A DNA stretch of 32,110 bases from Prevotella sp. (GTDB lineage: Bacteria; Bacteroidota; Bacteroidia; Bacteroidales; Bacteroidaceae): assembly GCA_017458125.1 (NCBI GenBank), contig JAFTGB010000051.1, positions 1-32,110 of the forward strand, written 5' to 3'. Shown piece after piece: positions 5,007-31,157 of the stretch. The notes below the pieces were generated by a model. It searched no databases. It was not told the DNA's origin and worked only from the letters and a program-made list of their open reading frames with translations. Position numbers and translations under genes: made by a program. Every line of letters begins with the position of its first letter. Position 1 is the stretch's first letter.

Positions 5007-6515
5007 CTAAGCATGCAGTTCCAGTACGAAGCGGGTGCCACGGGTGAAAGCAGGGTCGACGGTGAGGTCGCCATTCATGTTTATCGCCATCTGTTTGCAG
5101 ATGGGCAGTCCCAAGCCGTCGCCCTCAGTGAGGTCGCGCACCTTGAGGAAGGGTTTGAAGATGTCGTCGCGCTCTTCCTCGGCAATACCTGCGCCGGTGT
5201 CGGACACTAAGAACTGGTGGGTATGGGCACCGCGCTTCTTGAACTCAAGGGTGATGCTGCCGCCTTCCGGTGTGTACTCGGCGGCGTTGCTCAACAGGTG
5301 CAGCAGGATGTGCGACACATAGTCCTTATTGATGCGGGCACTCATTCTGGGAGCCTTGACCGACAGGTTGACGCCGCTCTTCACCTTGCCGCGGATCTGG
5401 TCCATCAGCCCCTCGCAGAACTCAGTGACCTGAGTGTCTTCCATCTCTACGTCCTCGCCTGCCGAGCACTCCAACTTGGAGAGCGTCTCTATGTGGTCCG
5501 AGAAAGTCTGCAAAGCCTTGACCTCGGGTACCTTGCTATCGAGTTTCTTCAAGGTAGGCCTGAGCTGTGCCGAGATGTTGCTGATGAACTTAGCCTTCAG
5601 GGCATTGTTCTCGTTGACCTGGTTGATGGTGTTCTTCTGCTTGCGCGTCAGCACGATGAAGCGCAGCAGGATGATGGCACCCACCACAAGGGCGGCAGCA
5701 AGGGCTGCAGCCAGAACGGCCAGACCAATGATGACGGCATAGCGCGTGGTCAGCGAACTGTCCTGGTCGCTGATGGTAGCTTCGTTGTCGGCTATCTGCT
5801 TCTTCAGTGCGCCTATCTCGTCGGCAGCCTTCAGCGCATTCACCGAGTCCTTCCATGCCATGTAGCTCTTGTACGACTCAGCCACCAGGCTGGCACTGTT
5901 GCTACGCCGGCCGTTGGCTATCAGCGTCTGGTAGACCTCGTCCACCTTGTCATACTCTTTCGTAGCCGTCAGCTTGTCCGCCATCTCCTTGAAGGTGGCG
6001 TTGCCCTTGGCCGTCTGTCCCGTAGTGTAGAGATAGAGCGTGCGGTTGTAGAGCAGGTCGTTCTTGATGTCTTCATCCGGCGATATGGCGGCATAGTTGG
6101 CCATGGCACTGAGCTGGTCCATAGCGCTGACCGGTTTGTGCAGCTTCATATACATCTGGAAGCGCTCCTTGGTGGTCAGGTAGTGCAGTGTGGCCTTGGC
6201 GCTACCGGCGGCACCCTTCTGCGCCTCGATGTTCTGGTCGACACGGCGCAGCAGGTCGAAGGCTTCCTTATACAGGTTCTCCCTGTAGTAGAGTGCCGTG
6301 GCGCGTGCCGCACTCTCCACGCCCTGCCGCATCTGCCCCTTGTTGACGTAGTCCTCGTAGGCCCGGATGAAGAGGAAGCGTGCACTGGTTGAGTTACCGT
6401 TCTTGAGTTCTGTCTCTGCCTTCTGCTGCATCTCGCTCTTCTTTGCCTCCTGACCGAAGGTCACGATGCTGCCGAGGAGCAAGGCAGCCAATAAGATTAA
6501 TCCTTTTTTCTTCAT
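5007..6515 (-). CDS. TPR-containing membrane sensor with HATPase domain but no phospho-acceptor His, 502 aa
   Basis: Inner-membrane protein resembling a sensor kinase. I chose the ATG at 6515 (MKKKGLILLAALLLGS, a signal peptide) over the in-frame ATG at 6584, because the longer start would run over the promoter. Residues about 25-230 are helical TPR-like repeats in the periplasm, followed by a short coiled coil, a membrane helix (about 260-286) and a cytoplasmic part. The H-box region reads FISNISAQLRPTL: the usual His is Ala (residue 316). The HATPase domain is intact, with an N-box Asn near 410, DTGAGI (439-444), FKPF, and GDGLGL (465-470). There is no receiver or DNA-binding domain. It is the first gene of a unit with the YicI-type GH31. 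It may sense envelope state without phosphotransfer, or act on another kinase. Confidence 0.75.
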   Translation of the reverse strand: MKKKGLILLAALLLGSIVTFGQEAKKSEMQQKAETELKNGNSTSARFLFIRAYEDYVNKGQMRQGVESAARATALYYRENLYKEAFDLLRRVDQNIEAQKGAAGSAKATLHYLTTKERFQMYMKLHKPVSAMDQLSAMANYAAISPDEDIKNDLLYNRTLYLYTTGQTAKGNATFKEMADKLTATKEYDKVDEVYQTLIANGRRSNSASLVAESYKSYMAWKDSVNALKAADEIGALKKQIADNEATISDQDSSLTTRYAVIIGLAVLAAALAAALVVGAIILLRFIVLTRKQKNTINQVNENNALKAKFISNISAQLRPTLKKLDSKVPEVKALQTFSDHIETLSKLECSAGEDVEMEDTQVTEFCEGLMDQIRGKVKSGVNLSVKAPRMSARINKDYVSHILLHLLSNAAEYTPEGGSITLEFKKRGAHTHQFLVSDTGAGIAEEERDDIFKPFLKVRDLTEGDGLGLPICKQMAINMNGDLTVDPAFTRGTRFVLELHA

Positions 6516-6549
6516 AGGTTTATTCTGTGTGTGATTTCGTTTTGTGATG

Positions 6550-6581
6550 CAAAAGTAAACATTTCTTTGCTTCTTTCCAAA
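6550..6581 (-). promoter_or_regulatory. full -33/-7 promoter for the TPR sensor - GH31 unit
   Basis: On the minus strand: TTTG (6578-6581), exactly 20 nt, then TACTTTTG (6550-6557), a perfect Bacteroidetes promoter about 35 nt before the start at 6515. Two AAACATTT copies on the plus strand (6557-6564 and 6579-6586) are 22 bp apart and overlap both promoter boxes. Confidence 0.8.
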
Positions 6582-6620
6582 CATTTTGGCAGGTTTTATA
6601 GACTAAAAACAGACCGTAAA

Positions 6621-8984
6621 CTAACGCATTCCAGCCATCAGCGTACCAGACTTCAGACCGATGGAGCGCGCGGAGACGGCACCCTTGCCCTTGACGACGG
6701 CGATGCAACGGCCAAAGAAAGCCTTGCGCTGCGGGGCGGTGAACCGCTCCATGGACGTCTGGCAGCCATTGTCGGTAGCAATGACCTTCGCTCCGCCGGT
6801 GGCAGAGAAGACAATCTGGTTCTCGGCCCACGGACAGCGGTTGCCGTCTTTGTCGACGACTACGGCCTGGACAAATGTCAGGTCGCGGCCCTGATAGTCG
6901 ACGGTAAGCTGCACATGGTCGGGCTGGCCAGCCGTGCGGATGACCTGCTCGCGCACCACCTTGCCTCCCTTGCGGGCCACCACCTTCACCTCGCCGGGCT
7001 CAAAGACGACGCGCCAGACGACATGATACTGGTGGGTGTTGGCCTTGCGGCGCACACCCTGGCTCTTGCCGTTGACAAAGAGTTCCACGTCGTCGGCATT
7101 GTTGTAGTAGCACCACAGGTCAATCTGCTGTCCCTCTAACCAGTTCCAGTGCGGAAACAGGTGCAGCACGGGCTTGTCGGTCCACTCGCTCTGGTACATA
7201 TAGTAGACATCCTTTGGCTGACCGGCCAGGTCGATGATGCCGAAATAGCTGGAACGGGCAGGGAACGAGTACGGCGTAGGCTCGCCTAAGTAGTCGAAGC
7301 CCGTCCAGATGAACTGTCCGCCACAGTAGGGTGTGTGCTTCACCACGTCCCAGTTGCGCTCATGCGTCGTCGACCACGAGGCGTGCATGTTGTCGTAAGC
7401 CGAGCACATGAACGTGGGGTCGCTGTAGGGCAGCCACCACTCCTTGGGTGCCTTGTAGATGCTGTCTGACGGCATCATGTAGTAGCCGTTGGTCTGTAGG
7501 GCCGAGACGCTCTCCGTCATGATGAAGGGGCGGCCGGGGAAGTTCTTGGGCACATCCTTGACGTAGTCGTGGTGGTAGTTGAAACCGATGATGTCGAGGG
7601 CGTTACCCTTGAACAGGTGGTTACCCGGCGACGGTTCGTTGCAGCCTGCCGTAATGGGGCGCGTGGTGTCATAGCGGCGCACTATCTCGGCCAGGTGTTC
7701 GGCCAGCAGCGTGTTCACCGACTTCGTGCCGTCCTTGGCCAGCTCCTTGGCGCTGTGACCGGCGTTGAGTATCAGGTTGGCCTGTTCCAAGGTCAACGTG
7801 TCGGCCTGCACGTCAGACCACTGCTCCAGCACCTCGTTGCCTATCGACCACATCAGTATGCACGGGTGGTTGCGGTCGCGGAGCACCAGGTCGGTGAGGT
7901 CGCGCTCGTGCCACTGGTCGAAGTAGCGGGCATAGTCGTTCTGCGTCTTGCGGCGGCGCCACATGTCGAAGGACTCGTCCATGACGATGAATCCCATGGT
8001 ATCGCAGATGTTCAGCAACTCGGGAGCCGGTGGGTTATGGCTGCAACGGATAGCGTTGACACCCATCTGTTTCAGCTTCAGCAGCTTGCGGTGCAGGGCA
8101 TCTTCATGGATGGCAGCACCGAGACAGCCCAGGTCGTGGTGCTCGCAGACACCGTTCAGCTTCATGTTCTTGCCGTTGAGCCAGAAACCCGTCTTGGCAT
8201 CGAAGCGGAAATCGCGGAAGGCCGTCGTGGTCCATACCTCGTCCACCACACGACCCTTGGCAATGACCTGCGTGCGCACCTTATATATATAGGGGTGGTC
8301 AGGCGACCACAGGTGCGGCGTCTTGACCCGCATGCCCACGTCACGGCCTGCGGCGTCAAACACGGTGTTGCGCACATGGTAGCCCTTGCCAGCCACCTCG
8401 GTCTTCACCTTCACCTTGCCCGTCTTGGCATCGGCCACAACGTGGACACCCCACGGCTTCACATGGTTGAAGTCGGTCTTGGTCAGCCACACATGACGGT
8501 AGATGCCACACCCCGAGTACCAGCGCGAATTGGGCTGGTCGCTGTTGTCGACACGCACGGCAATGACGTTGTCGCCACTGCGCAGATAGCGGGTGATGTC
8601 GTACTGGAACGAGCTGTAGCCGTAGGGACGGGTGCCCAACTTCGTACCATTGATATAGACGGTGGCGTTCATATAGACCCCGTCGAACTCGATGAAGTAC
8701 AAGCGCGGCTCACCCACACGGAAGTGCTTGCGATACCAGCCTACCCCGCCCGGCAGCGCACCGCCGCCGGCTCCGCTGGGGTTAGAGGCCATGAAGTCGC
8801 CCTCGATGGCCCAGTCGTGGGGCAGGTTCAGGTGCCGCCAGTGGCTGTCGTTATAGTTTATTGACGACATGCTGGCAGAGTCAGCCAGTATGAAGCGCCA
8901 GTCGGCATCAAAGCACTCACGCTCGCGGGCCTGCAGGACAGCCACCGCACAAAGGGCGCCAATGACGGCAAGTAGTCTTCTCAT
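6621..8984 (-). CDS. GH2 beta-galactosidase-type glycoside hydrolase, 787 aa, exported
   Basis: Retaining glycosidase of family 2, predicted periplasmic, most likely removing beta-linked galactose from xyloglucan side chains. N-terminal signal peptide MRRLLAVIGALCAVAVLQA. Order: sugar-binding jelly-roll (about 23-170, with GVGWYRKHF and SGIYRHVWL-like GCGIYRHVWL), Ig-like domain (about 180-265), TIM barrel (about 267-560), then Ig-like C-terminal domains (about 600-787). The acid/base is Glu384 in MWSIGNEVLE and the nucleophile is Glu491 in PFIMTESVSA; NGVCEHHDLG (277-286) and RCSHNPP (313-319) are standard GH2 barrel lines. It starts 54 bp after the PA14-GH31 stop with no promoter of its own seen, so the two are probably one transcript. 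GH2 also contains beta-glucuronidases and mannosidases; galactosidase is inferred from the neighbours. Confidence 0.85.
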   Translation of the reverse strand: MRRLLAVIGALCAVAVLQARERECFDADWRFILADSASMSSINYNDSHWRHLNLPHDWAIEGDFMASNPSGAGGGALPGGVGWYRKHFRVGEPRLYFIEFDGVYMNATVYINGTKLGTRPYGYSSFQYDITRYLRSGDNVIAVRVDNSDQPNSRWYSGCGIYRHVWLTKTDFNHVKPWGVHVVADAKTGKVKVKTEVAGKGYHVRNTVFDAAGRDVGMRVKTPHLWSPDHPYIYKVRTQVIAKGRVVDEVWTTTAFRDFRFDAKTGFWLNGKNMKLNGVCEHHDLGCLGAAIHEDALHRKLLKLKQMGVNAIRCSHNPPAPELLNICDTMGFIVMDESFDMWRRRKTQNDYARYFDQWHERDLTDLVLRDRNHPCILMWSIGNEVLEQWSDVQADTLTLEQANLILNAGHSAKELAKDGTKSVNTLLAEHLAEIVRRYDTTRPITAGCNEPSPGNHLFKGNALDIIGFNYHHDYVKDVPKNFPGRPFIMTESVSALQTNGYYMMPSDSIYKAPKEWWLPYSDPTFMCSAYDNMHASWSTTHERNWDVVKHTPYCGGQFIWTGFDYLGEPTPYSFPARSSYFGIIDLAGQPKDVYYMYQSEWTDKPVLHLFPHWNWLEGQQIDLWCYYNNADDVELFVNGKSQGVRRKANTHQYHVVWRVVFEPGEVKVVARKGGKVVREQVIRTAGQPDHVQLTVDYQGRDLTFVQAVVVDKDGNRCPWAENQIVFSATGGAKVIATDNGCQTSMERFTAPQRKAFFGRCIAVVKGKGAVSARSIGLKSGTLMAGMR

Positions 8985-9038: not shown

Positions 9039-11978
9039 CTACAGTTTCACCTTAACCGTCTTGCCCTTGTAGGCCACGACAGTACCCTGCTGGCCGTCGA
9101 AGCTCAGCGGCTGGGCATTCTCCTTGGTGACATAGACAATGCGGAAGGTGCGGTTCTTCAGCATGCCGTTGAACTGTCCCTTGCGCTCGCCAAAGGTGAC
9201 CGTGCGCGAGGCGTCGTCGTAGCTGATGTCGATGGTGGCATACTTGCCCTTCTCGTAGTTGTAGTTCGTGCCCTCGTCCTCGTAGAGCTGGAACTGTCCG
9301 TCCTTGCCGCCGTAGACGTAGAGCGTGATGTTGTCGGCAGGTTTCTCGTCGCAATACTGCATCTCGGGACCGTAGGGGATGATGCTGCCCTCGCGGACGA
9401 AGACGGGGATGCACTCGTAGGGAGCGTCGACCACCAGCGACTGGCCGCCGTCGATGTGCTCACCCGTATACAGGTCGTACCAACCCGTCTGCTTGGGGAA
9501 GTAGACCGAGCGGTTGCGGGCTTTGTAGTAGCCTACGGGACAAGCCATCAGGGCCGGTCCGAACATCCACTGGTCCTTGATGTTCTCCACCTTGCGGTCG
9601 CCGTTGAAGTCCATGATGAGTCCGCGCATCATGGTGTAGTCCTTCAGGTGTACCCACCCGGCCATGGAGTAGAGGTAGGGCATCAGGCGGTAGCGCAGCT
9701 TGTCGTAGTAGACAAACGACTTATAGGCGGGGTGATCCTCGGGGGCAATGTTCCAGATTTCACGCGTAGGCCACTGGCCGTGGACGCGGAACAGGGGAAT
9801 GAAAGCGCCGAACTGGCTCCAGCGTGCCTGCAGCTCGCGCCACTCCTTCAGGTCTTCGTTCTCCTGACCCGTCTTGTTGAAGAGCTGCTGGGCAGCCACA
9901 TAGCGGTTTTCCACACAGAAGCCACCCTGGTCCATACCCCAGAAGGGCAGTCCCGACATGGAGTAGTTGAGTCCGGCAGTCATCTGGGCACGCATGTCCT
10001 CCCAGCGCGTACCGATGTCGCCCGACCATGTGGCGGTGGAGTAACGCTGTTCGCCGGCGAAGCCGCTACGCGTCAGCAGGAACACGCGCTGGTTGGGGTT
10101 GACGCTGCGCTGTCCGTTGTATATGGCGTCGGCGTTGACAATGCTGTAGGCGTTGAAATACTCCGTCGTGGTGCCGAGAGCCGTGGGGCCGCTGAGTGCC
10201 TTGCGATACCACATGGGCGTGCAGTCGCGCACGTTAGGCTCCGAGGCGTCCATCCACCACGCGTCAATGCCACACTTGTACTTAGAGAAAAGGTTCTCGT
10301 CCATCTGGCGCCAGAACATCTTGCGGGCTCCGGCGTCGTAGGCATCGTAGAACGAGCCGACATAGCCCGGACCCACCCAGTCGTGGATGTCGTCAACAAC
10401 GGCCTGGTGGTACATCCAGCCCTTCTGGTCGAGCTCCTTGTAGTTGTCGGTGTTGGCGTAGAACTTCGGCCACACGCTGATCATGAAACGGCCACCCATG
10501 GCGTGTACGCTGTCGAGCATGGCCTGCGGGTTGGGATAGCGCGAGACCTCGAACTGGTGAGAACCCCACTGGTCCTCCTTCCAGTAGTTCCAGTCCTGCA
10601 CGATGTTGTCGACAGGAATCTGACGACGGCGGAACTCGGAAAGCGTCTCCTCAATCTCGCCCGACGTCTTATAGCGCTCACGGCTCTGCCAGAAGCCCAA
10701 CACCCACTTGGGATAGACGGGAGCCTTGCCCGTCAGCGTGCGGTAGCCCGAAATCACCTCGTCGGCATTGCGGCCAGCAATGAAGTAGTAGTCCATGTCC
10801 TTGGCCATCTCGCTCCAGATGCTGAGCTTGCGCTGATCCTTGTTTTCCTTGGCCACACGCAGTCCGCAGTAGCTGACGTCGCCGTCGGGCTGCCACTCTA
10901 TGCGCAACTGGTAGCGGCGCGCTTTCTGCAGCACCTTGCGGAACTTATAGGTGTTGGGGTTCCAGGCCGTGCGCCACCGCTCGGGCACCACCTCGTCGCC
11001 ACCGATGTATATCTTGACATAGCCGGCATAGTAGAGGATGAAGTGGTACTGGGCGTCGCGGGGAGCTTCGATGAAACCTTCATACACCACCTTCGAGCCG
11101 TTCAGCTTGAAACCCTTAGGCAGATTCTTGATGCCGCCGGGTTCCGTCTGGTTAGCTAACTGCGAGGTTGCCGGACAGTCGAACTCATAGTAGATGGAGT
11201 CCTCGTCGCGCACGATGCGCTTACCCTGCTTGTCGGTATAGGTACCAGTCAAGTGGCCTTCCCTACCCTTTCGGTCGTAGATTTTGAAGGCGCGTCCTAA
11301 CTGCAGGTACTCCTCCGGATTGCCAAAGCGGCAGTAGGAGTAGGAGTCCCACAACAGTCCGTAGTTCTTGTTGCTGAGCACGAAGGGAACACTGACCTTC
11401 GTGTTATACTGGAAGAGGTCTTCGTTCAGCCCCTTCATGTTCAGCTCCTCTGACTGGTGCTGACCCAGACCGTAGAAGGCTTCGTCCTTGGGACTTTCAA
11501 AGAGCATGCGCCACGTCAGACCGTTGCGCTGCGACTCGGGCACCTTGGCCACGTCGACACCAATCTCGCGGTCGGGCACGCGGAAGGGCTTGAAGGTCTT
11601 GCCGTCCTCGGCTTCCTTCAGCAGCTCCTTGCCCTGGGCGTCGTAGAAGGTGACGGCACCCGTCTGCTTGTTGACGCGGGCCTCCACGCCGGCAGCCTTC
11701 ACGCTGACCTCCTTGCCGTCGGTCACGTTGAACTTGGGCTTGGCTTTCTGGTCGACGATGATGAGGCTCGTCTTCTCAGGCAGCCGGGCCTCCGACGTAG
11801 CCTGCACCCGGATAATGTTGTCGTTCACCACTTGCAGGCGCACCACCTGTGCTCCTCCTGCCTTCACACTCTTCACGGGGATGGTCACATACTGGCCGCT
11901 CACGGTGTAGTCGGCAGCCGACAGCATGGTCGCAGCAAGCGACAGCATCCCCACTGTCAATGTCCTTAGAATAGTCAT
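9039..11978 (-). CDS. GH31 alpha-xylosidase with PA14 insertion (BoGH31A/CjXyl31A-like), 979 aa, exported
   Basis: Retaining GH31 enzyme predicted to cleave xylose from xyloglucan oligosaccharides in the periplasm. I chose the ATG at 11978 (MTILRTLTVGMLSLAATMLSA, a signal peptide); the in-frame ATG at 12065 would overlap the promoter. Order: N-terminal beta-sandwich (about 22-245), a PA14-like insertion (about 246-375, with GFIEAPRDAQYHFILYYAG and VKIYIGGDEV), the rest of the sandwich, the barrel (about 420-770), and C-terminal beta domains ending in a DUF5110-like part (YEDEGTNYNYEKGKY). The nucleophile is Asp577 in AWWMDASEP and the acid/base is Asp654 in TWSGDIGTRW. The PA14 insertion in this position is known from xyloglucan alpha-xylosidases, which makes the substrate call stronger than for the shorter GH31. 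It lies 93 bp after the AraC-type sensor gene and ahead of GH2. Confidence 0.92.
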   Translation of the reverse strand: MTILRTLTVGMLSLAATMLSAADYTVSGQYVTIPVKSVKAGGAQVVRLQVVNDNIIRVQATSEARLPEKTSLIIVDQKAKPKFNVTDGKEVSVKAAGVEARVNKQTGAVTFYDAQGKELLKEAEDGKTFKPFRVPDREIGVDVAKVPESQRNGLTWRMLFESPKDEAFYGLGQHQSEELNMKGLNEDLFQYNTKVSVPFVLSNKNYGLLWDSYSYCRFGNPEEYLQLGRAFKIYDRKGREGHLTGTYTDKQGKRIVRDEDSIYYEFDCPATSQLANQTEPGGIKNLPKGFKLNGSKVVYEGFIEAPRDAQYHFILYYAGYVKIYIGGDEVVPERWRTAWNPNTYKFRKVLQKARRYQLRIEWQPDGDVSYCGLRVAKENKDQRKLSIWSEMAKDMDYYFIAGRNADEVISGYRTLTGKAPVYPKWVLGFWQSRERYKTSGEIEETLSEFRRRQIPVDNIVQDWNYWKEDQWGSHQFEVSRYPNPQAMLDSVHAMGGRFMISVWPKFYANTDNYKELDQKGWMYHQAVVDDIHDWVGPGYVGSFYDAYDAGARKMFWRQMDENLFSKYKCGIDAWWMDASEPNVRDCTPMWYRKALSGPTALGTTTEYFNAYSIVNADAIYNGQRSVNPNQRVFLLTRSGFAGEQRYSTATWSGDIGTRWEDMRAQMTAGLNYSMSGLPFWGMDQGGFCVENRYVAAQQLFNKTGQENEDLKEWRELQARWSQFGAFIPLFRVHGQWPTREIWNIAPEDHPAYKSFVYYDKLRYRLMPYLYSMAGWVHLKDYTMMRGLIMDFNGDRKVENIKDQWMFGPALMACPVGYYKARNRSVYFPKQTGWYDLYTGEHIDGGQSLVVDAPYECIPVFVREGSIIPYGPEMQYCDEKPADNITLYVYGGKDGQFQLYEDEGTNYNYEKGKYATIDISYDDASRTVTFGERKGQFNGMLKNRTFRIVYVTKENAQPLSFDGQQGTVVAYKGKTVKVKL

Positions 11979-12008
11979 CTGTTTTATATTTATAGTTTTA
12001 TTGTTCTG

Positions 12009-12016
12009 CAAAAGTA
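12009..12016 (-). promoter_or_regulatory. -7 element for the PA14-GH31 - GH2 unit
   Basis: Minus strand TACTTTTG fits TAnnTTTG, about 30 nt before the start at 11978. No TTTG lies 19-21 nt upstream. A GGCAACATTC sequence (12045-12054) upstream resembles the half-sites found before the susC-like gene. This suggests activator dependence. Confidence 0.55.
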
Positions 12017-12071
12017 CATAAAAAAGGGCTAAACGAACGGGCGTGAATGTTGCCATTCCATGCATATTTCG

Positions 12072-15000
12072 TTATTCGCGCTTGTTTTTGTACTCTGACG
12101 GCATCATTCCGTACATCTCCTTGAAGTATTTCGAGAAGTAGCGCGGATTGTTGAAACCCACCTTGTAGGCCACCTCGGCCACCGTCAGCTGGCTCTTGCG
12201 GAGCAGCTGCTCGGCGTGGCGGAGCCTGATTTGGCGGATAAACTCGGAGGGTGTCAGACCTGTGACGGCGGTCAGCCGTTTATACAGGTGGACGCGCGAC
12301 ATGCTCAACACCTGGGCCATGGTCTCGACGCTGATGTCGGAATTGTCCAAGTTGTTCTCCACATAGTGCGTGGCGTCGTCCACCAGCTTCTCGTCTAAGC
12401 TCGTTATCTCCATCTCGCGGATCTGGGGCTGCAGCTTGCCCTGTGCCTGCCCCGACTCCGACAGGCGGTTCACCTGTTCCAGCAGGTTCTCCAAGTGGCC
12501 GAACACCTGCTGCTCCTCCTCGTAGCGCTGCTCGTCGTTCTCGCGCTGCATCAGACCGTTCAGACTCTCGAAGATGTTCTGGAAGGGCTGCCGCAGCTCG
12601 TCGTTCACGCTGTCGTAGAAGCGCTGCTTCTGCTCGTTCAGCCGGTAGCTGCTCTCCTGCTCCACCTTCAGCTGCTGCAGGCGCAGCTGCTCCTTGTAGC
12701 GGCGGTAGAGCCAGCGCACCGCCAACAGGGCTATGAGCATATAGACCAGCCACATCCACCACGTGCGGTACCACGGGGCATCGATGACGATGGGCAGTCT
12801 GATTTCCTCGTCGCCCATAGTGCCGTCGCCGTTCAGCATGCGCACAAACAGGGTATAGCTGCCGGGGCGCAAGCCCATGTAGGTGATGTCGGGGTGCGAC
12901 TCTTCACTGTAGAGCCACTGCTTGTTGAAGTTGTCTAACTTATAGGCGAAGCGGGCGCGGTTGTGCACCTCGCCATTGTCGGAGGCCAACTGCACCGTGA
13001 ACTGGTTCTCCGACGACCTCAGGTGCAGTCTGCTGCCTACGCGCTCCACGGGCCGGTCCATGACCTTGACGCCGCTGAACAGCGGCCGCTCCTCGCTGCG
13101 GGTGGCCGTGGCCATGGTCCGCAGGTTGATGATGTCGAGCCCTTCATGGCCGCCAACGAGCAGCTGTCCTGCTGCTGTCACCGTCGCCGACCGCTGGTTG
13201 AAGGGACCATCCTGCAGGCCGTCGCGGTTGTTGTAGCTGCGCACGATGAATGTCCAGCGGCCGTCCTCCTGCTGCTGGGGTATGACGTTGGAGAGTCCGT
13301 GCTCGGTGACTACCCACATCGTGTGGCGGCTGTCCTCCACGATGCCGTTGACCGTGGAGCCTATGAGGCCGGACTTCATGTCGAGAAATGCGCAGGCGTT
13401 GCCTTTGACGTCGCACACGGTGACTCCCGCTGACGCTCCCTGCCAGATGAGTCCGCGGCTGTCCTGCACCACGATGGTGGTGGCCTCGCTGACGGGGATG
13501 TCGGCCTGTGGCGCGCTGATGCTGCGGTTTTCCAGCTTCAGCGTCTTCGCGTCGATGAGTGAATAGAAGTCTGAGTGGCCTACTAACAGACGGCCGTCGC
13601 TGTCGGTATGTATGGACGATATGTAGTTGCTGGGCAGCGGCGAGTTGTCGGTGTTCAGCGTGGTGAAGCGGCCTGTCTGGCAGTCCAGTCGCTGCAGACC
13701 GCCGCCCAGGGTGCCTATCCACACGTTGCCCTCGCGGTCTTCGGCCAAGGCCCAGATGCTGTTGTGGACGAGTCCGTCGCCCTGCCCTGCCCGGTAGGCC
13801 GTGAAGCGGCCGTCGCGCCAAGAGACCAGCCCGCCCTCGTAGGAGCCGAACCACAGCGTGCCGTCGCGGGCTGCCAGACTGCTGACGATGACGTCGGAAC
13901 CCAGCCCACTGGCCTGCTTGTCGAAGACAGTCTGTTCGCCCGTGGCCGGGTTATAGCGTATGATGCCGTTGTCGTTGGTGCCCACCCAGTAGCGCCCGTC
14001 GCCGTCCACGCAGACGGTGTTGACGTTGCCTAAGTCCAGGTGACGGAAGTTGAACAGGTTCTCGGCGTAGTAGTTGACACCGTTCCTGTAGGTGGCCACC
14101 CACATGCGGCCCCGCTGGTCGCGGTACAGCTGGCGCAGCGTGTTGTCGCTGATGGTGGTCTCGTCGTTCTTCACCGGCATGAACTGGCGCAGCTGCCGCC
14201 CTTGCAGGTCGGCGACGCACAAGCCCTCATGGTCGGTCGACATCCACAGCTGGCCGTGCTTGTCGACGGCCATGTCCCATATCTTGGTCTCGGCCGACAG
14301 GCCGCTGACGCCACGCCACCGCAGGGCGGCGGCAGCGGTGTCGAACCACCGTCCGGCCTGCCGCATGTAGCACCAGGCACGACCGTTGACCATCACCCAC
14401 AGGTTGCGCTCGCCGTCGATGCACAGCGAGTAGCCGGCATTGCGCGGCGCACCCATGCGGCGCAGTCGGCTGCTCTTCCAGCTGATGCGCACGTCGCCGG
14501 TATGGAAGCACACCAGGTCGCCGTTGCTCGACGCCATGAGCAGGCTGCGCCCGTATTCGGCGAAGTCGCTGACACCCAGGTCGGGCCTCAGCTGCTGTGC
14601 CCCGTGGCCGAAGGTGAACACGCGCTGGCGACCGTTACTGATGTTGAGGTGCCACAGTCCCTGGTCGTAGGTCTTCACCCAGAAATTCTTGTGGCGGTCT
14701 ATGTAGAGGCGCTCCACGCCGCCCTTCAGACCGCGCTCGTGCAGCCAGCGCTCGGGGTGGCGGTCGCAGCGCTCAGTGGCGGGGTCGAAGACGGAGTATT
14801 CCGGTCCGTGGCGCAGCCACAGCCGTCCGTCGGCATCCTCCTGGATGTCGTCGATGTAGCTCTTCAGTATGGTAGTGGTATCGTTGGTCTGCGAGTAGTA
14901 GACGCGCACGCGGTAGCCGTCGTAGCGGTTCAGTCCGTAGGGCGTGCCTATCCACACCAGTCCGCGGGAGTCGCGCAGTATGCAGCTGACCTGCGTGTTG

Positions 15001-15116
15001 GACAGCCCGTCGCGGGTGTCCAGACGCCGGAACTTCATGTCGGGGACGATGGCGTGTGCCACCGCTGCCATCGTCACCAGCCCTAAGGCTAACAGGGTTC
15101 TAACTACACTACGCAT
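12072..15116 (-). CDS. Membrane-bound sensor with Y_Y_Y domain and AraC DNA-binding domain, lacking HATPase and receiver (degenerate HTCS), 1014 aa
   Basis: Predicted transcription activator of the locus, spanning the inner membrane. I chose the ATG at 15116 because it begins a signal peptide (MRSVVRTLLALGLVTMAAVAHA); an upstream in-frame ATG at 15290 lies deep in the preceding gene. Order: two-propeller periplasmic sensor (about 25-680, repeated IWIGT/LWFGSYEGGL blades), Y_Y_Y domain (about 705-778), membrane helix (785-803), a coiled-coil linker (805-890), and an AraC HTH domain (about 910-1012, SVETMAQVLSMSRVHLYKRL and GFNNPRYFSKYFKEMYG). The linker keeps a ghost of the H-box, RFYDSVNDELRQPF, with Asp839 where His should be. 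HATPase and receiver, normal in hybrid two-component systems, are entirely absent. It overlaps the preceding paralogue by 8 bp. Confidence 0.88.
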   Translation of the reverse strand: MRSVVRTLLALGLVTMAAVAHAIVPDMKFRRLDTRDGLSNTQVSCILRDSRGLVWIGTPYGLNRYDGYRVRVYYSQTNDTTTILKSYIDDIQEDADGRLWLRHGPEYSVFDPATERCDRHPERWLHERGLKGGVERLYIDRHKNFWVKTYDQGLWHLNISNGRQRVFTFGHGAQQLRPDLGVSDFAEYGRSLLMASSNGDLVCFHTGDVRISWKSSRLRRMGAPRNAGYSLCIDGERNLWVMVNGRAWCYMRQAGRWFDTAAAALRWRGVSGLSAETKIWDMAVDKHGQLWMSTDHEGLCVADLQGRQLRQFMPVKNDETTISDNTLRQLYRDQRGRMWVATYRNGVNYYAENLFNFRHLDLGNVNTVCVDGDGRYWVGTNDNGIIRYNPATGEQTVFDKQASGLGSDVIVSSLAARDGTLWFGSYEGGLVSWRDGRFTAYRAGQGDGLVHNSIWALAEDREGNVWIGTLGGGLQRLDCQTGRFTTLNTDNSPLPSNYISSIHTDSDGRLLVGHSDFYSLIDAKTLKLENRSISAPQADIPVSEATTIVVQDSRGLIWQGASAGVTVCDVKGNACAFLDMKSGLIGSTVNGIVEDSRHTMWVVTEHGLSNVIPQQQEDGRWTFIVRSYNNRDGLQDGPFNQRSATVTAAGQLLVGGHEGLDIINLRTMATATRSEERPLFSGVKVMDRPVERVGSRLHLRSSENQFTVQLASDNGEVHNRARFAYKLDNFNKQWLYSEESHPDITYMGLRPGSYTLFVRMLNGDGTMGDEEIRLPIVIDAPWYRTWWMWLVYMLIALLAVRWLYRRYKEQLRLQQLKVEQESSYRLNEQKQRFYDSVNDELRQPFQNIFESLNGLMQRENDEQRYEEEQQVFGHLENLLEQVNRLSESGQAQGKLQPQIREMEITSLDEKLVDDATHYVENNLDNSDISVETMAQVLSMSRVHLYKRLTAVTGLTPSEFIRQIRLRHAEQLLRKSQLTVAEVAYKVGFNNPRYFSKYFKEMYGMMPSEYKNKRE

Positions 15117-18100
15117 TATCGTCCAGCATAACGGCCTCCTCCACCTGAATGTCAGGTTCAGCAGGCAGGGTGATGGTAAAGACTGTGCCTCCGCCGGGAT
15201 TGTCGGCCAGACGGATGGTGCCGCCATGGGCAACGACGATGTCGTGGACATGGTCAAGCCCGATGCCGTCACCGACCAGCACGGGAGCAAAGGCGGTGGC
15301 CTTGTACTCGTCGCGGATGCCTATGCCGTTGTCGGCCACTTGGATGACGGCCTGGCCGTCGCCGCCGCGTCCCACGTTGACGGTGATGCGGCAGTTGCCG
15401 GGCGAGAACTTGACGCTGTTGACCAGCAGGATGTTCAAGGCTTCGGCCAGCTGGCCGCGGTCGATGGAGACGGGCAGCTCCTTGACCAGTGACACAAACG
15501 ACACTTTGGCTTTCAGTCCCTCGGGGGTCACCGAGAACTCCTTGCAGATGTTGCCGACGGTGGTCACCAGGTCTCTGGACTCACAATGCAGCACGATGAC
15601 CTTGTGCTCGGCGACAGGCTCCGGCTCGGCCTGCCGGCCTCCGCCCTGCTGTGCGGCGGCGCGCTCGGCAGCCAACTGCATGCGTATCTCGTTCATCCAC
15701 TGCTTCTTCTCGGTCTCACGGCGCAGCGTCTCGGCGGCCATGCGATGCTCGTGGTGCCGGATGTACCACTGACGCGAGCGCCACACGGCGAAGGCGAATA
15801 GCATGAGGTAGATGAGCAGCATCCACCAGCGGCGCCACAGGGGCGGCAGTATGGTGATGTCGAGCAGGCTCTCTTCCTCGCCGAAGGTGCCATCGTCGTT
15901 CAGCATTCTGACGTGCAGCACGTAGTCGCCGGGACTCAGCGAGTTGTACGTGATGTTGGGGTTCTGCTCCGACGTGCGCACCCAGTGCTCGTTGAAGCCC
16001 TCCAAGCGGTAGACGAAGCGCGAGCGGTTGTGTATCTCGCCGCTGCTGCTGCCCAACTGGATGGTGAACTGGTCGTTGTAGCGCAGCGTGACGGAGCGGC
16101 AGTCGTCCAGCGACTCGTCCAAGAACACGCGGCCGTCCACTTCCTGGCCTACGTAGACATCCTGGTCGAAAATCTGCAGTCCGCTGAACAGCGGTCGCTC
16201 GTTGTTGCGGCCCTTGTTGATGTTGTCAGGATTGATGATGTCCAAGCCGCCCTGACCGCCCACCAGTATCAGACCGTCGTGCGTGTAGCACATGGAACGC
16301 TGGTTGTAGGGGCCGTCCTGCAGTCCGTCGCGGTTGTTGTAGCTGCGCACCACGAAGTGCCATAAGCCGTCGTCCTGCTTCTGCGGAATGATGTTGGTGA
16401 CGCCGTGGTCGGTGGCTAACCAGATGGTGTGCTTGTTGTCCTCTATGAGTCCGTTGACGGTAGAGCCGAAGAATCCCGACTTCATGTCTATCAGGTAGGC
16501 ATGGCGGTGCTTCATGTCCCAGATGGTGGCACCTGACGACGAGCCCTGCCAGATGAGTCCGCGGCTGTCCTCCATGCCGCAGATGGAGATTTCGGTGATG
16601 GGTATGCCCTCGGGGTTGTTGGCGGCGTTGATGTTCTTCACCTCGAAAGTCTTGGGGTTGACGAGCGTGAAATACTTGGAGTGGGCAGCAAGGAGCCACC
16701 CTTTCCGTGTGCGAGTGATGGCGTTGATGTAGTCGCTGGGGATGACGCTGTTGCTCATGCGCACGCTGCGCATGCGCCCCGTGCGCTTGTCGACACGCTG
16801 TATGCCGCCGCCGAGTTCGCCGAGCCACATGTTGCCCCACTGGTCCTCGCAGATGGTCCAGATGTTGTTGCTGTTGAGTCCGAGGGTGTCGCCCGTGGCC
16901 GTGATGTTGGTCACGTGGCCGTCCTTGATGTGGATGAGTCCGCCCTCGTAGGTGCCGAACCACACCGACCCGTCGCGGGCCACCATGGAGCCTACCATGG
17001 TGTTGGAGCGGAAGCCGCTGTTCTCGCGTGTGTAGCTGACCTGCTCCTCGGTGCGGGGGTTGTAGCGGATGATGCCTTTGTCGTTGGTGCCTAACCACCA
17101 GTAGCCCTGCCGGTCGGCGCAGACGGTATTGATGTTGCCCAACTCTAAGTTGTTGAAGCTCTGCACCGAACCGGTGTAGAGGTTGACGCCGTTCATGTAG
17201 GTGCCTATCCACATGCGGTCCAGCTGGTCGCGGTAGACGACGCGCAGCGTGTTGTCCGAGATGGTGCTCTCGTCCAACTTGTTGTTCAGGAACTGCCGCA
17301 GATTCTTGTCCTTGGGGTCGGCAACGAACAGTCCGCCATGGTCGGTGGCCAACCAGTAGCGGCCCTCCTTGTCCTGGTTCATGTCCCACAGCGAAATCTC
17401 GTCGGGCACGTCCTCATAGCCCCAGGCGCGCAGCGCGTCCAGGACGGAGTAGAACCAGTGGCCGGTGCGGTGGTTGTAGATGTAGGTGGACTCGGTGGTG
17501 ATGAGCCACAGATTGCCCTGCTTGTCTAAGCGGGGTTTGCAGTCCTGGTCGCTCACGCGCTGCTGCTGGCGCAGGTGACCGTTCTTCCAGACTATGCGGT
17601 CTTTCTTCTTGTCGAAGCACAACACTTCGCCATTGGTTGAACTGACATACAGGTATTGTGCGTCCTCGACGAAGTCCGACACGGCCACGTCGGCATTGAA
17701 GTCCTGGGCACCGAAGCCGAACCTGAAGCAGCGGGCCTGCTTGGTCTTAGGGTTGATGTGCCAGAAGCCCTCGTCGTAGGTCTTCACCCAGAAGTGGCGG
17801 TCGCGGTCGATATACATGCGCTCGATGCCGCCCCTCATGCCCATCTGATGCAGGATGTGCTCAGGGTGGCGGTAGCCGCGCTCGGTCACGGGGTCGAACA
17901 TGGAGTAGTTCATGCCCTGGCGCAGCCACAGCTTGCCGTCGTAGGCTTCCATGATTTCGTCCACGTAGTTGTTGCGCAGCGTCATCGTGTCCTTGGCGTC
18001 GGAGTAGAACGTGCGGAAACGATAGCCGTCATAGCGGTTCAGACCGTAGGGTGTGCCTATCCACACGAAGCCTTTCGTGTCGCGCATCAGCGTCTTGATG

Positions 18101-18222
18101 TTCGAGTTCGACAGACCGTCGCGGGTGTCCAACCGCAGGAACTTCATATCGGGAACGCCGCACAGGGCCAGCAACGGCCACAGCATGACGGCGCATAGCA
18201 CCAATGTCTTACTTTTCATCAT
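15109..18222 (-). CDS. Membrane sensor with Y_Y_Y domain and HATPase domain, lacking phospho-His, receiver and DNA-binding domain (degenerate HTCS), 1037 aa
   Basis: Inner-membrane sensor, paralogue of the gene that follows it. Signal peptide MMKSKTLVLCAVMLWPLLALC (the second Met at 18219 could be the start). Order: two-propeller sensor (about 24-680, opening VPDMKFLRLDTRDGLSN as in its partner), Y_Y_Y (about 712-790), membrane helix (about 798-815), coiled coil (820-860), a Gln/Gly/Pro linker, and an HATPase fold (about 905-1020) with N935, DNGIGI (964-969) and GDGIGL (984-989). The F-box is lost. The helix before the ATPase has no H-box; the nearest alignment puts Met848 at the His position. 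The protein ends just after the ATPase. It is the first gene after a strong promoter and is coupled to the AraC-type partner. Heterodimer formation is inference. Confidence 0.85.
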   Translation of the reverse strand: MMKSKTLVLCAVMLWPLLALCGVPDMKFLRLDTRDGLSNSNIKTLMRDTKGFVWIGTPYGLNRYDGYRFRTFYSDAKDTMTLRNNYVDEIMEAYDGKLWLRQGMNYSMFDPVTERGYRHPEHILHQMGMRGGIERMYIDRDRHFWVKTYDEGFWHINPKTKQARCFRFGFGAQDFNADVAVSDFVEDAQYLYVSSTNGEVLCFDKKKDRIVWKNGHLRQQQRVSDQDCKPRLDKQGNLWLITTESTYIYNHRTGHWFYSVLDALRAWGYEDVPDEISLWDMNQDKEGRYWLATDHGGLFVADPKDKNLRQFLNNKLDESTISDNTLRVVYRDQLDRMWIGTYMNGVNLYTGSVQSFNNLELGNINTVCADRQGYWWLGTNDKGIIRYNPRTEEQVSYTRENSGFRSNTMVGSMVARDGSVWFGTYEGGLIHIKDGHVTNITATGDTLGLNSNNIWTICEDQWGNMWLGELGGGIQRVDKRTGRMRSVRMSNSVIPSDYINAITRTRKGWLLAAHSKYFTLVNPKTFEVKNINAANNPEGIPITEISICGMEDSRGLIWQGSSSGATIWDMKHRHAYLIDMKSGFFGSTVNGLIEDNKHTIWLATDHGVTNIIPQKQDDGLWHFVVRSYNNRDGLQDGPYNQRSMCYTHDGLILVGGQGGLDIINPDNINKGRNNERPLFSGLQIFDQDVYVGQEVDGRVFLDESLDDCRSVTLRYNDQFTIQLGSSSGEIHNRSRFVYRLEGFNEHWVRTSEQNPNITYNSLSPGDYVLHVRMLNDDGTFGEEESLLDITILPPLWRRWWMLLIYLMLFAFAVWRSRQWYIRHHEHRMAAETLRRETEKKQWMNEIRMQLAAERAAAQQGGGRQAEPEPVAEHKVIVLHCESRDLVTTVGNICKEFSVTPEGLKAKVSFVSLVKELPVSIDRGQLAEALNILLVNSVKFSPGNCRITVNVGRGGDGQAVIQVADNGIGIRDEYKATAFAPVLVGDGIGLDHVHDIVVAHGGTIRLADNPGGGTVFTITLPAEPDIQVEEAVMLDDNA

Positions 18223-18672: not shown

Positions 18673-20499
18673 TCAGTACGGCCAGCTGGCGGCGGCAACA
18701 CCCTCGGTGATGCCGTCCATGGCGGGCTGGCAGAAGACAGACAACGTGGCGCGGTTGAGGATGGTCATGACACCGGCCTTGCCGCCCTGGTTGGGCGAGT
18801 TGATGTCCCACGCCATGGGCACACAGCCGTTGTTGATGGCCTGCGTAGTCACATCCTTGAACCACTGCTTGATGCTGGCGTCGTGCTGGGCCTGATTGCT
18901 GCTGAGCTGACGCCAGTTGGCACCGTACTCGCCGATGAAGACGGGGTAGCCCTTGCTGGCGAACTTCTTGCTCATCTTCTCCATCTGCCCTTTCAGGTAG
19001 GCCTCTTCGCCCCATGTGCTGTTGTAGTCGGCATCAGCGCCGCTGACATGGTTGGCGCTGCCCCAGAAGTAGAGGGGCCAGTTCCAGTCGCCCTTCTTGG
19101 CCTTGTCCTCGCCCATGGTGCCGCCGAAGTGGCAGTGGGTGAAGCCGAAGGGGTCGTAGTAGTGCACCTCGACACCCAGATAGCCTGCACCGGCGGGGTC
19201 GTTGAGTTTGCTGACGTCGAACCACTTGTCGGTGTTGTCGATGTTGGTCGACGGTCCCTGCACCACCAGCGTGCGCTTGGCGTTGTTGCCGCCCGTGGCG
19301 CGCACGGCGTCGATGAAGGCCTGCTCGTACTTCTGCAGGGCGTTGGTCTTGTTCTGGTTGTCGCAGGCGGGCTCGTTGAGTCCGGCAAAGAGCAGGTGCT
19401 CGTCGTAGTCGCGGAAGCGCGTGGCTATCTGCGTCCACAGCTTCTTCATCTTGTCACAGTTCTTCTGCACCGTGGCGTCGGTGATGTCGCCGAACGAGTT
19501 CTCCACCCATCCGCCGTCCCAGTGGTCGTTGACCATGACGTAGAGTCCGGCATTGATGCAGTAGTCGACAATCTCCTGCACGCGGTCCAGCCATGCCTTG
19601 TCGATGGTCATGTCAGTCTCGTTGCTCACATGCCCCATCACCCACGCCGTGGGAATGCGTACCGACTTGAAGCCCTTGCTCTTGACATAGTCGATGACGG
19701 CCTGCGTGGTCTTGGTGCGCTGCCAGCTGGTCTCCGCGCCCACACCGCCGTTGATGGTGTAGTTGTTGGCGTTGCTGCCGCCCTCCATGGTGTTTCCTAA
19801 GTTCCAGCCGGGGTTCATCTGCCGGGCTATCTGCATGGCCGTGGCCGTGATGGTGCCAGCCTGTCCGGCAGCCTGCGTCACGGTGACGGTGGCCGTCTCC
19901 TTGTTCAGGGTGAACGTGAGGGTGGCGGTGCGCTGGCTCGACGTATTGGCGGCAGCGGTGAAGCTGTGCTCGCCGGTGCCCTTGGCACCCACCGCCAGCC
20001 AAGCGGCATCGGAGGCCACCTGATAGTCGCCGTTGGTGGTGACCTTGACGCTGAACGTGCCACCCTCGGCAGCCACGGCATACTCCGACGGCGTGACCGT
20101 CAGAATGTCGCCGGCCTTCTGCGTCACGGTGACGGTGGCCGACTCGGAGCCGGCCTTCAGGGTGATGGTGGCGGTGCGGTCGGCGGTCTCAGTGGTCATG
20201 GCGGCCACCTTGACAGTGACGGGCGTCACCTTCAGGTTGGGCGACATGGTGCCCGTAGTGACGGTGCACCAGCTCTGGTCGCTCGTGGCCGAAGCCTGCG
20301 ACGGAGCCTGCACGCTGACCGTCTGCTCGCCGCCGTCCTTGGTGAAGGTGAGGCTGGAGGGCTGCACATTCATACCCGTGACGGTGGTGCCGCCACCCGA
20401 ACCGCTGCCACTGTCGTCGTCACCGCCACAGGCAGCAAAAGCTGTGGTGGCCACGAGGGCCACCAGCAGCATAAAGATTTTCTTAGTCATGAGTCTCAT
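18673..20499 (-). CDS. GH5 (subfamily 4-like) endo-beta-1,4-glucanase/endo-xyloglucanase lipoprotein with two BACON domains, 608 aa
   Basis: Predicted cell-surface endo-glucanase that starts xyloglucan breakdown. SPII signal with lipobox AFAAC (Cys24) followed by an acidic GGDDDSGSG tether, typical of surface export in Bacteroidetes. ATG at 20499 and ATG at 20490 are both possible; the second gives a cleaner signal. Order: BACON 1 (about 42-130), BACON 2 (about 131-212), GH5 barrel (about 218-608). Acid/base Glu376 in FAGLNEPAC and nucleophile Glu524 in FIGEYGANW; NPGWNLGNTMEG and VRIPTAW are standard GH5_4 lines, with His326 in NDHW. The characterised BoGH5A has one BACON; two here would give a longer stalk. 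It starts 3 bp after the binding-protein stop, so it ends the susC operon. Confidence 0.9.
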   Translation of the reverse strand: MRLMTKKIFMLLVALVATTAFAACGGDDDSGSGSGGGTTVTGMNVQPSSLTFTKDGGEQTVSVQAPSQASATSDQSWCTVTTGTMSPNLKVTPVTVKVAAMTTETADRTATITLKAGSESATVTVTQKAGDILTVTPSEYAVAAEGGTFSVKVTTNGDYQVASDAAWLAVGAKGTGEHSFTAAANTSSQRTATLTFTLNKETATVTVTQAAGQAGTITATAMQIARQMNPGWNLGNTMEGGSNANNYTINGGVGAETSWQRTKTTQAVIDYVKSKGFKSVRIPTAWVMGHVSNETDMTIDKAWLDRVQEIVDYCINAGLYVMVNDHWDGGWVENSFGDITDATVQKNCDKMKKLWTQIATRFRDYDEHLLFAGLNEPACDNQNKTNALQKYEQAFIDAVRATGGNNAKRTLVVQGPSTNIDNTDKWFDVSKLNDPAGAGYLGVEVHYYDPFGFTHCHFGGTMGEDKAKKGDWNWPLYFWGSANHVSGADADYNSTWGEEAYLKGQMEKMSKKFASKGYPVFIGEYGANWRQLSSNQAQHDASIKQWFKDVTTQAINNGCVPMAWDINSPNQGGKAGVMTILNRATLSVFCQPAMDGITEGVAAASWPY

Positions 20500-30137: not shown

Positions 30138-31157
30138 TCAAGTGGCTTTTTTGGCCGATGTTTCGCGTATCACCAACTGCTGAGGCACTATCTCGTGGCA
30201 CACCTTCGTGTCGCCGTTGATGTTCTTGAGCAAAAGTTGACATGCGCGCACACCCATCAAGTGCGACTGGTCCTCAATGGCCGACATGCGGGGGGTGACA
30301 TAGGCGGCATGCTGGTCGTCGGTGAAACCGATGAGCGCCACGTCCTCAGGGATGCGCAGCCCGGAATTCTTGATGGCCGTGAAGGCGGCAAAACAGATGA
30401 TGTCGTTGAAAGCCACGATGGCATCCGGACGGTGGGCACTCTTCAGCAGCCGCTCCGTAGTGGCCAGCGCCTCGCGGTAGTCTATCTTGCCACATATCAC
30501 TAAGCTGCGGTCTATCGTCAGGCGGTTATCGCGCAAAGCCTCCAAATAGCCGTGCTTGCGGCGGCGCACCATGTCCAAGTGGTTGGGGCCGCCAAGGAAG
30601 GCAATACGACGGCTCCCCGTGTCTATCAGGTGCTGCGTAGCCATCTGCGCAGCCTCGTCGCCATTGGCCGTCACACTGGAGAAGCGGTCCGACAGGCATG
30701 TACGACCGAAGAACACTAACGGAATACCCATGTCGGCAATCTCCTCGTAGTGGCTGTAGTCGGTGGTGGTCTGCGCCAGGCACGCTATGATGCCCTCCAC
30801 ATGCAGACTCACAAAGTTGTCCACAGCCTGCGCCTCGTCCTCAAAGTGCTCGTGACTGTTGGCACTGATGACGCTATAGCCCGCACGGCGAGCCTCGTCC
30901 TCGATGCCGTCTAACACGGCAGCATAGTAGTGCGTCACCAGGTTTGGCACCACAACACCTATCATCTTCGGGGCATCCTTGCGCAAACCCTGAGCAAACG
31001 GGTTCGGACGGTAGTTCAGCTTCTTGGCCAGCTCCTTTACGCGGGCCTGCATCTCCTTGCCTATCTCCGGCGAGCTGCGCAGCGCTCGGCTGACGGTGGC
31101 TATGCTGACATTCAGTTCACGGGCTATGTCCTTCAGCGATGTTCGGTGTTGTTTCAT
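30138..31157 (-). CDS. LacI-family transcription regulator, 339 aa
   Basis: Cytoplasmic sugar-responsive DNA-binding protein. Residues about 6-52 form the LacI HTH (SLKDIARELNVSIATVSRAL), followed by the hinge KKLNYRPNPFAQGLRK. A two-lobed periplasmic-binding-like domain follows (about 63-335: MIGVVVPNLVTHYYAAVLDGIEDEA, GIPLVFFGR, RRIAFLGGP, DAIVAFNDIICFAA, DVALIGFTDD). Length is standard. It lies just upstream of the susC-like operon in the same direction but has its own promoter. An AAACGTTT palindrome on its promoter suggests it represses itself. I find no equally good copy of that operator before the susC-like or GH genes, so control of the locus by this protein is uncertain. The effector cannot be told from sequence. 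Confidence 0.95.
   Translation of the reverse strand: MKQHRTSLKDIARELNVSIATVSRALRSSPEIGKEMQARVKELAKKLNYRPNPFAQGLRKDAPKMIGVVVPNLVTHYYAAVLDGIEDEARRAGYSVISANSHEHFEDEAQAVDNFVSLHVEGIIACLAQTTTDYSHYEEIADMGIPLVFFGRTCLSDRFSSVTANGDEAAQMATQHLIDTGSRRIAFLGGPNHLDMVRRRKHGYLEALRDNRLTIDRSLVICGKIDYREALATTERLLKSAHRPDAIVAFNDIICFAAFTAIKNSGLRIPEDVALIGFTDDQHAAYVTPRMSAIEDQSHLMGVRACQLLLKNINGDTKVCHEIVPQQLVIRETSAKKAT

Follow-up and report, generated by a model that had tools for sequence, protein, structure and literature searches.

Two tandem propeller sensors without a phosphorelay in an apparent xyloglucan locus of Prevotella, and their possible link to a LacI-family regulator

Background

Hybrid two-component systems (HTCS) are usually thought of as phosphorelays carried on one chain. 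They are a major class of polysaccharide-use regulators in Bacteroides and, according to passages of the same study, the two DNA-binding domains of an HTCS dimer are held close regardless of stimulus, activity needs to be suppressed, and contact with the receiver is proposed to do so (PMC11253607). In S. copri, as stated in parts of PMC11784079, a co-regulated cluster of HTCS, GH2 and GH31 genes belongs to the xyloglucan response and its HTCS, NQ544_01410, is the predicted xyloglucan regulator. Here we describe two tandem genes, designated G1 and G2, on a 32,110-nucleotide stretch of Prevotella sp. DNA (assembly GCA_017458125.1, contig JAFTGB010000051.1; hereafter the window), that encode sensors of the HTCS kind within an apparent xyloglucan locus. 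The reading we favour, with a probability of roughly 0.5, is that an ancestral xyloglucan sensor has been rewired to two outputs free of phosphotransfer, a one-component AraC regulator (G2) and a pseudokinase sensor (G1) that acts on a LacI-family protein.

Domain content of G1 and G2

The features of the two genes are as follows.

15109..18222, minus strand: G1, 1037 amino acids (aa), with signal peptide, two propellers, Y_Y_Y, membrane helix, coil, HATPase and acidic tail (open reading frame (ORF), Pfam, AlphaFold model)
15673..15732, minus strand: G1 coil, residues 831-850, kept across G1 proteins (alignment of G1 rows)
15157..15462, minus strand: G1 HATPase_c, residues 921-1022 (Pfam, alignment)
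15112..15144, minus strand: G1 C-terminal tail VEEAVMLDDNA, common to G1 homologues and sensor-only proteins (65 of 69, loose pattern)
12072..15116, minus strand: G2, 1014 aa from the ATG at 15116, with signal peptide, two propellers, Y_Y_Y, membrane helix, pseudo-dimerisation helices and AraC domain (ORF, Pfam)
12447..12632, minus strand: G2 pseudo-dimerisation helices, about residues 829-890, with Asp839 at the phospho-His position (alignment)
12087..12323, minus strand: G2 AraC-type DNA-binding domain, residues 932-1010 (Pfam)

Pfam searches, listed to E 10 with filters that drop most matches above about 0.1, identified Reg_prop, Y_Y_Y and HATPase_c (1.7e-17) in G1, with no match to HisKA, a receiver (Response_reg) or HTH, and Reg_prop, Y_Y_Y and HTH_18 (1.3e-25) in G2, with no match to HATPase, HisKA or a receiver. 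The preliminary description of this DNA, made from the sequence by eye, had G1 as sensor plus HATPase only and G2 as sensor plus dimerisation helices and AraC domain only; both assignments hold, as do the 8-bp overlap of the two genes, confirmed from their coordinates, and the presence of N935, DNGIGI (from residue 964) and GDGIGL (from 984) in G1. The two proteins are 47.6% identical across 847 residues; their signal peptides and membrane helices were assigned by visual inspection of the sequence and the model. In the AlphaFold model of G1 (mean predicted local distance difference test score 77.6, predicted template modelling score 0.52), a single unbroken helix (795-859) comes after the propellers and Y_Y_Y, and a linker joins it to the HATPase fold; the tail is disordered, and no dimerisation hairpin is present. 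The best Foldseek matches of the modelled sensor are 4a2m, 4a2l and 3v9f, and it matches BT4663, BT3049 and BT4673 best. Pfam and Foldseek therefore agree on a two-propeller plus Y_Y_Y periplasmic sensor as in HTCS.

Asp839 of G2 falls, as noted in the preliminary description, where the phospho-His would be; that column is His in all 12 HTCS rows that cover it (one, L095, a near-copy of L094; L104 lies outside the column and is uncounted). None of the 16 G2-type loci keeps the phospho-His: D takes its place in 11, E in four and K in one. With no receiver in either protein and no hairpin in the G1 model, the loss of the phosphorelay proposed for the pair is borne out, with the correction that G1 has one continuous helix in this region. 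Neither protein has the phospho-His, the receiver with its phospho-Asp or the full set of modules that an HTCS has in one chain, nor do the two make up a split two-component system, in which one partner has the His and the other the receiver. G2 has instead the composition of a membrane one-component regulator, a sensor, a membrane helix (read by eye) and a DNA-binding domain with no relay domains. Relatives of G2 stand alone beside the same genes, and its most likely role is that of a membrane-bound one-component regulator of the AraC type; the occurrence of G2-type proteins without G1 in nine genomes gives indirect support to G2 regulating on its own. As it has no receiver, G2 would be held inactive in another way, or would be partly active without ligand.

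Distribution of the regulator forms

A census of 398 genomes of the genus, including the window's own, in which up to seven candidates per genome were scored, identified G1-type proteins in 88 genomes (91 hits at the cut-off of E 8.2e-26 or better) and G2-type proteins in 15, with 16 hits that were each inspected. It also gave 34 genomes with HTCS of this AraC lineage; the frame is 1318-1469 aa long in 33 of them and 700 aa in G268, which was entered on its AraC match. At the cut-offs used, 267 genomes have none of the three forms. Two frames of 1066 and 1083 aa (G323 and G361; E 1e-22 and 1e-20) fell below the G1 cut-off and were left out, and a contig-end fragment, G119, is missing from the hits. 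G1 and G2 occur together in six genomes, each time in tandem and in the order G1-G2. Recurring in five other species, with an 8-bp overlap in one (G215) and spacing within about 25 bp in the other four, the tandem is more than chance. A search for this arrangement elsewhere, suggested in the preliminary description, thus found it; the obligate matched pairing also proposed there is unsupported, because, at the cut-offs used, 82 of the 88 G1 genomes have no G2 and nine genomes have a G2-type protein and no G1. The closest full-length G1 relative (G033, 69%) has no G2, and GH31a, the homologue of the GH31 gene that follows G2 in the window, lies about 60 bp after its G1.

These counts make it unlikely that the two proteins must pair as a heterodimer, with the AraC half of G2 gated by the binding of ATP to G1. 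The overlapping or closely spaced tandems, the homology of the two sensors and the joining of a sensor-only protein to G1 in one chain in a single assembly favour such a complex, but the coil and tail of G1 are kept with or without G2; for the six tandem species heterodimers are possible. Less probable still is a role for G1 as a decoy or damper that enters mixed dimers with a DNA-binding partner and lowers the activity of that partner. The lack of a DNA-binding domain in G1, the similarity of the G1 and G2 sensors, sufficient for them to pair, and the existence of sensor-only proteins would fit this role, but at E 1e-40 an AraC sensor of this lineage that G1 could damp is missing from 82 of the 88 G1 genomes, and in a decoy the N, D and G residues of the HATPase would be free to vary, yet they are invariant.

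No genome has both G1 and an HTCS of this lineage, against 7.5 expected (hypergeometric p 1.3e-4, uncorrected for ancestry). All 13 HTCS loci inspected (L094-L106) have His-kinase, HATPase, receiver and AraC matches, and GH31a lies directly after the HTCS in nine and LacI directly before it in four, the rest being non-adjacent or beyond reach. GH31a follows seven, and LacI precedes four, of 10 stand-alone G2-type loci. Depending on the species, the position beside GH31a and/or LacI is therefore occupied by a full HTCS, a G2-type protein alone, G1-G2, G1 alone or U-G1, where U is a sensor with a membrane helix and almost no cytoplasmic part that is followed by G1 in some species. Relatives with full modules, which the preliminary description had named as a sign of local decay, do exist, in 34 genomes, but because the reduced forms are spread over many species they are, as far as the compared sequences can tell, a lineage-wide remodelling and not a local decay. 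Across 301 sampled genomes of the family, scored at up to two candidates per genome, matches in other genera were frames of 1123 to 1418 aa ending at G1 residues 818-852; none reached the G1 HATPase, and G1-length matches were limited to the window's genus. Five sensor relatives in genus g8 (G503, G516, G557, G597 and G610) are encoded by frames of 1123-1157 aa, a length that falls short of a full HTCS, and are possibly also reduced. The named full-length G1 records are Prevotella, Prevotellaceae or Bacteroidales assemblies, several of them named after gut samples of deer, sheep, reindeer, yak or buffalo.

In the HATPase tree, which has few columns, the G1 HATPases group as a single clade (support 100/98) next to those of the HTCS from the same locus, and nothing in it supports an origin of the G1 HATPase from a different kinase of the locus. 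The sensor and HATPase trees conflict over some rows (L024, L025 and L030), and neither the fused nor the paired rows group as one clade, a pattern that suggests recombination among the paralogous sensors. With the two trees in disagreement, no clean order of events emerges from them.

Nucleotide-site residues of G1

The N-box Asn and G1-box Asp of HATPase domains have roles in Mg and adenine binding. Both are kept in G1, as in a pseudokinase that retains its nucleotide site: N935, D964 and G968 are present in all 56 G1 rows and G966 in 55. Other positions are eroded, with G986 in 43 of 56 rows, G988 in 29, the N-box Lys in nine and the F-box Arg in none, whereas the HTCS rows keep each of these four in 14 of 14. 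The preliminary description had asked whether the His loss and the ATPase residues are conserved, and this is so for the His loss and for N935 and D964, but not for the G2-box Gly988. G1 looks like an ATP-binding pseudokinase because N935, D964 and G968 are invariant while the G2 box, N-box Lys and F-box Arg are changed, and the G2-box and F-box changes suggest that no phosphate is transferred. The short coil that follows the membrane helix is conserved in G1 (W842 in 53 of 56 rows) and is not seen in the HTCS rows. That G1 is still a kinase, phosphorylating a His on another protein in trans, seems improbable: the three invariant residues and a 419-aa kinase with a His motif (frames checked) upstream in a number of G1 loci are in keeping with it, but not the loss of G988, N-box Lys and F-box Arg. 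Sensor kinases of 418-419 aa lie about 2.7-6 kb upstream of G1 in 11 loci that have no U (L033-L037, L040 and L051-L055). The His is present in that of L054, the only one of the 11 caught by a motif scan, and in similar frames in L150 and L154.

LacI neighbours and LacI-G1 fusions

Among 73 distinct G1 loci, the gene directly upstream of G1 (within 125 bp) encodes LacI in 24; in seven LacI is joined in frame to the N-terminus of G1, in 15 U comes before G1 and in one U is fused to it; 21, the window included, have another or no recognised gene upstream, and five run off the stretch. This count was reduced from 74 rows by removing L105 (a full HTCS labelled G1) by hand, and only exact C-terminal duplicates were removed, so that near-copies such as L050 and L056 count twice. 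The LacI-G1 fused proteins are found in seven species (G081, G249, G258, G262, G294, G327 and G396) as ORFs of 1373-1376 aa with a gap-free junction. The mean ratio of nonsynonymous to synonymous substitution rates (dN/dS, NG86; 21 pairs of fused proteins) is lowest in LacI (0.065), followed by the sensor (0.107), the cytoplasmic part (0.168) and the 40-residue junction (0.21). The three pairs computed between the two fused sub-lineages gave dS of 0.95 to 1.29. The fusion is thus under purifying selection in seven species. It is most improbable that these genes are decaying relics with no regulatory role: different species have lost different domains, but the frames are open across dozens of species, dN/dS is low in the fused proteins, the nucleotide residues are invariant and the tail is kept.

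Both of the two fused proteins scanned have LacI, Peripla_BP_3, Reg_prop, Y_Y_Y and HATPase_c matches in one frame, and two of the seven fused ORFs contain no ATG able to start a separate G1 with a complete signal peptide, although TTG or GTG codons exist. The topology of the fusion would be sensible, with LacI inside, the former signal peptide as a membrane anchor, the propellers outside and the HATPase inside. The shared junction suggests a single origin of the fusion, but the fused rows split in the sensor tree. In L018, upstream of position 1384, a short repetitive spacer parts LacI and G1, yet this locus adjoins two fused species in the sensor tree, possibly as a result of re-splitting.

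Sensor-only proteins and the shared C-terminal tail

The sequence (V/I)EEAxxx(D/E), or a close form, ends 65 of 69 complete G1 and U proteins from which near-duplicates had been removed, the exceptions being three U and one G1, and it is absent from the ends of the 12 HTCS and 10 G2 rows compared. The tail is common to U and G1 although U is without the intervening domains, and this suggests a shared binding partner. A signal at the nucleotide level was ruled out, as codons vary at the conserved residues. In the window's genome a strict codon pattern of the tail matches G1 only. The loose pattern gave 41 matches in 12 genomes, 30 of which were read: they are G1, U, three chains with VEEAEIVDEE, two other acidic C-termini (L120 and L141) and frames without sign of a gene. 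In the three chains (L114, L122 and L142) VEEAEIVDEE lies near the C-terminus and is similar to the G1/U tail; from the sequence upstream of it they appear to be GyrA-like (DNA gyrase subunit A). The tail was also considered as a genome-wide docking motif, and the matches outside G1 and U were taken as likely convergence. In one assembly (RUG12181; L041:5406-11105) U and G1 are fused in a 1899-aa frame, and the U tail is gone at the junction.

Proposed mechanism

G1 and G2 would descend from one hybrid two-component sensor of the xyloglucan locus and would signal without phosphotransfer. In G2, a periplasmic ligand, presumably xyloglucan fragments given the enzymes of the locus, would turn the propeller dimer, and the membrane helix and His-less dimerisation helices could transmit this movement to the paired AraC domains. 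G1 is tied to LacI more often than to G2, and its DNA-binding output would be the LacI protein of the same locus and not G2; in the seven fused species LacI and G1 are one chain, so that LacI would work at the membrane. Taken further, an ATP-binding pseudokinase domain on a propeller sensor would gate LacI across the membrane, as a complex of two proteins in many species and in seven as one chain that runs from LacI through a membrane helix, the propellers, a second membrane helix and the HATPase to the acidic tail, with a periplasmic sugar as input and no phosphotransfer, and G2 would be a parallel output in few species. We offer this fuller version tentatively, as somewhat less probable than the rewiring itself. 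The window has the two outputs side by side, and mixed sensor dimers may couple them. We think that a single sensed sugar feeds both, possibly with some mixing of the two at the level of the sensors.

Several observations weigh against this reading. LacI also directly precedes four of the 13 HTCS and four of the 10 stand-alone G2-type loci; its adjacency is therefore not special to G1, and fusion of neighbours could be partly chance. The 21 loci with neither LacI nor U directly upstream of G1 include some (G035, G149) in which LacI is one gene further, and at L042 and L045 no LacI is present in the stretches examined. Of the 40 G1 genomes among the first 200, five lack a LacI match at E 1e-120. 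The window has its LacI gene 12 kb away from G1, and G082 has it on a separate contig. Where a genome has GH31a, LacI is modestly more frequent with G1 (35 of 39 genomes) than without (52 of 77; Fisher p 0.012, uncorrected for ancestry), and as proof of partnership this co-occurrence was set aside as weak. The fused rows do not make one clade in the sensor tree, and an AxA-like site remains in the fusion, so that signal peptidase could cut after the former signal peptide; LacI would be membrane-bound whether cleaved or not. Nearly all named relatives are, in addition, metagenome assemblies.

Gene content of the locus

The locus, all on the minus strand, encodes LacI, a SusC-like protein, two further proteins, SusD, BACON-GH5, G1, G2, GH31, GH2, a 525-aa HATPase protein and a second GH31; judging by the enzymes, the substrate would be xyloglucan.

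30138..31157, minus strand: LacI-family regulator (Pfam), with homologues directly upstream of G1 or fused to G1 elsewhere
26809-29952, minus strand: SusC-like protein, named from its place and length, outside the Pfam scan
25111..26760, minus strand: SusD-like protein (Pfam)
18673..20499, minus strand: BACON-GH5 (Pfam)
9039..12065, minus strand: GH31 (GH31a), whose homologue follows G1 in 60 of the 73 distinct G1 loci (after G2 in tandems)
6621..8984, minus strand: GH2 (Pfam)
5007..6584, minus strand: 525-aa HATPase_c protein with Ala339 at the apparent phospho-His place (Pfam, by eye)
2685..5000, minus strand: second GH31 (Pfam)

By eye, the 525-aa protein has a membrane helix and a dimerisation-like stretch and is a second, apparently His-less, kinase-like protein of the locus. 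Elsewhere in the window's genome, a propeller sensor on contig 30 (L063:639-4391) has an AraC domain, gives no HATPase match and, as read by eye, carries Asp where the phospho-His belongs; its receiver seems to have lost the phospho-Asp, making it another phosphorelay-deficient HTCS relative. A further one-component form on contig 68 (L065:2-3094) has a sensor, membrane helix and AraC domain, with no kinase or receiver match.

Comparison with known systems

Many species of one genus have dropped the relay and kept the sensor, and some join a kinase-like ATP-binding domain to LacI in one chain. These features point to a means of transmembrane sugar signalling that has not been described. Among the titles and abstract openings of the open-licence papers listed in our searches, we recognised no description of a HATPase-only propeller sensor, of its pairing with an AraC paralogue or of a LacI-propeller fusion. 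If the coupling to LacI is true, it shows a route by which a two-component sensor gains a transcription factor of a new class as its output, and G1 offers a testable example of the role left to a HATPase domain that has ceased to phosphorylate. As a caution for annotation, not every propeller/Y_Y_Y protein is a two-component system.

Pseudokinase histidine kinases of the DivL type, like G1, keep the HATPase and have lost the usual phosphotransfer, but G1 has no dimerisation hairpin at all and has its own tail, and we know of no LacI fusion among such pseudokinases. The membrane one-component regulators ToxR and CadC carry sensor, membrane helix and DNA-binding domain in one relay-free chain, and G2 would work alike, although the domains are unrelated and the DNA-binding part is at the opposite end. 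The nearest label to G2 is that of the BT4673 sensor, deposited both as a 'putative one component system' (3ott) and as a 'putative hybrid two component system' (3va6); passing mentions in two papers treat BT4673 as an HTCS. The Bacteroides-type HTCS (BT4663, and NQ544_01410 of S. copri) share the two-propeller plus Y_Y_Y sensor with G1 and G2 and, from what parts of PMC11784079 describe, the same kind of locus. Full HTCS of the same AraC lineage directly precede the same GH31 in nine of the 13 inspected loci; in comparison, G1 and G2 are without phospho-His and receiver, and their HATPase and DNA-binding parts are on separate chains. BT4236 is an HTCS with Gln848 at the phospho-His site, which its authors take to suggest a phosphorylation-independent mechanism (PMC11253607). 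The loss of the His is common to BT4236 and the proteins described here, but where passages of that paper discuss BT4236 among HTCSs with a receiver and a DNA-binding domain, in G1 and G2 the receiver is gone and the HATPase and AraC domains stand apart.

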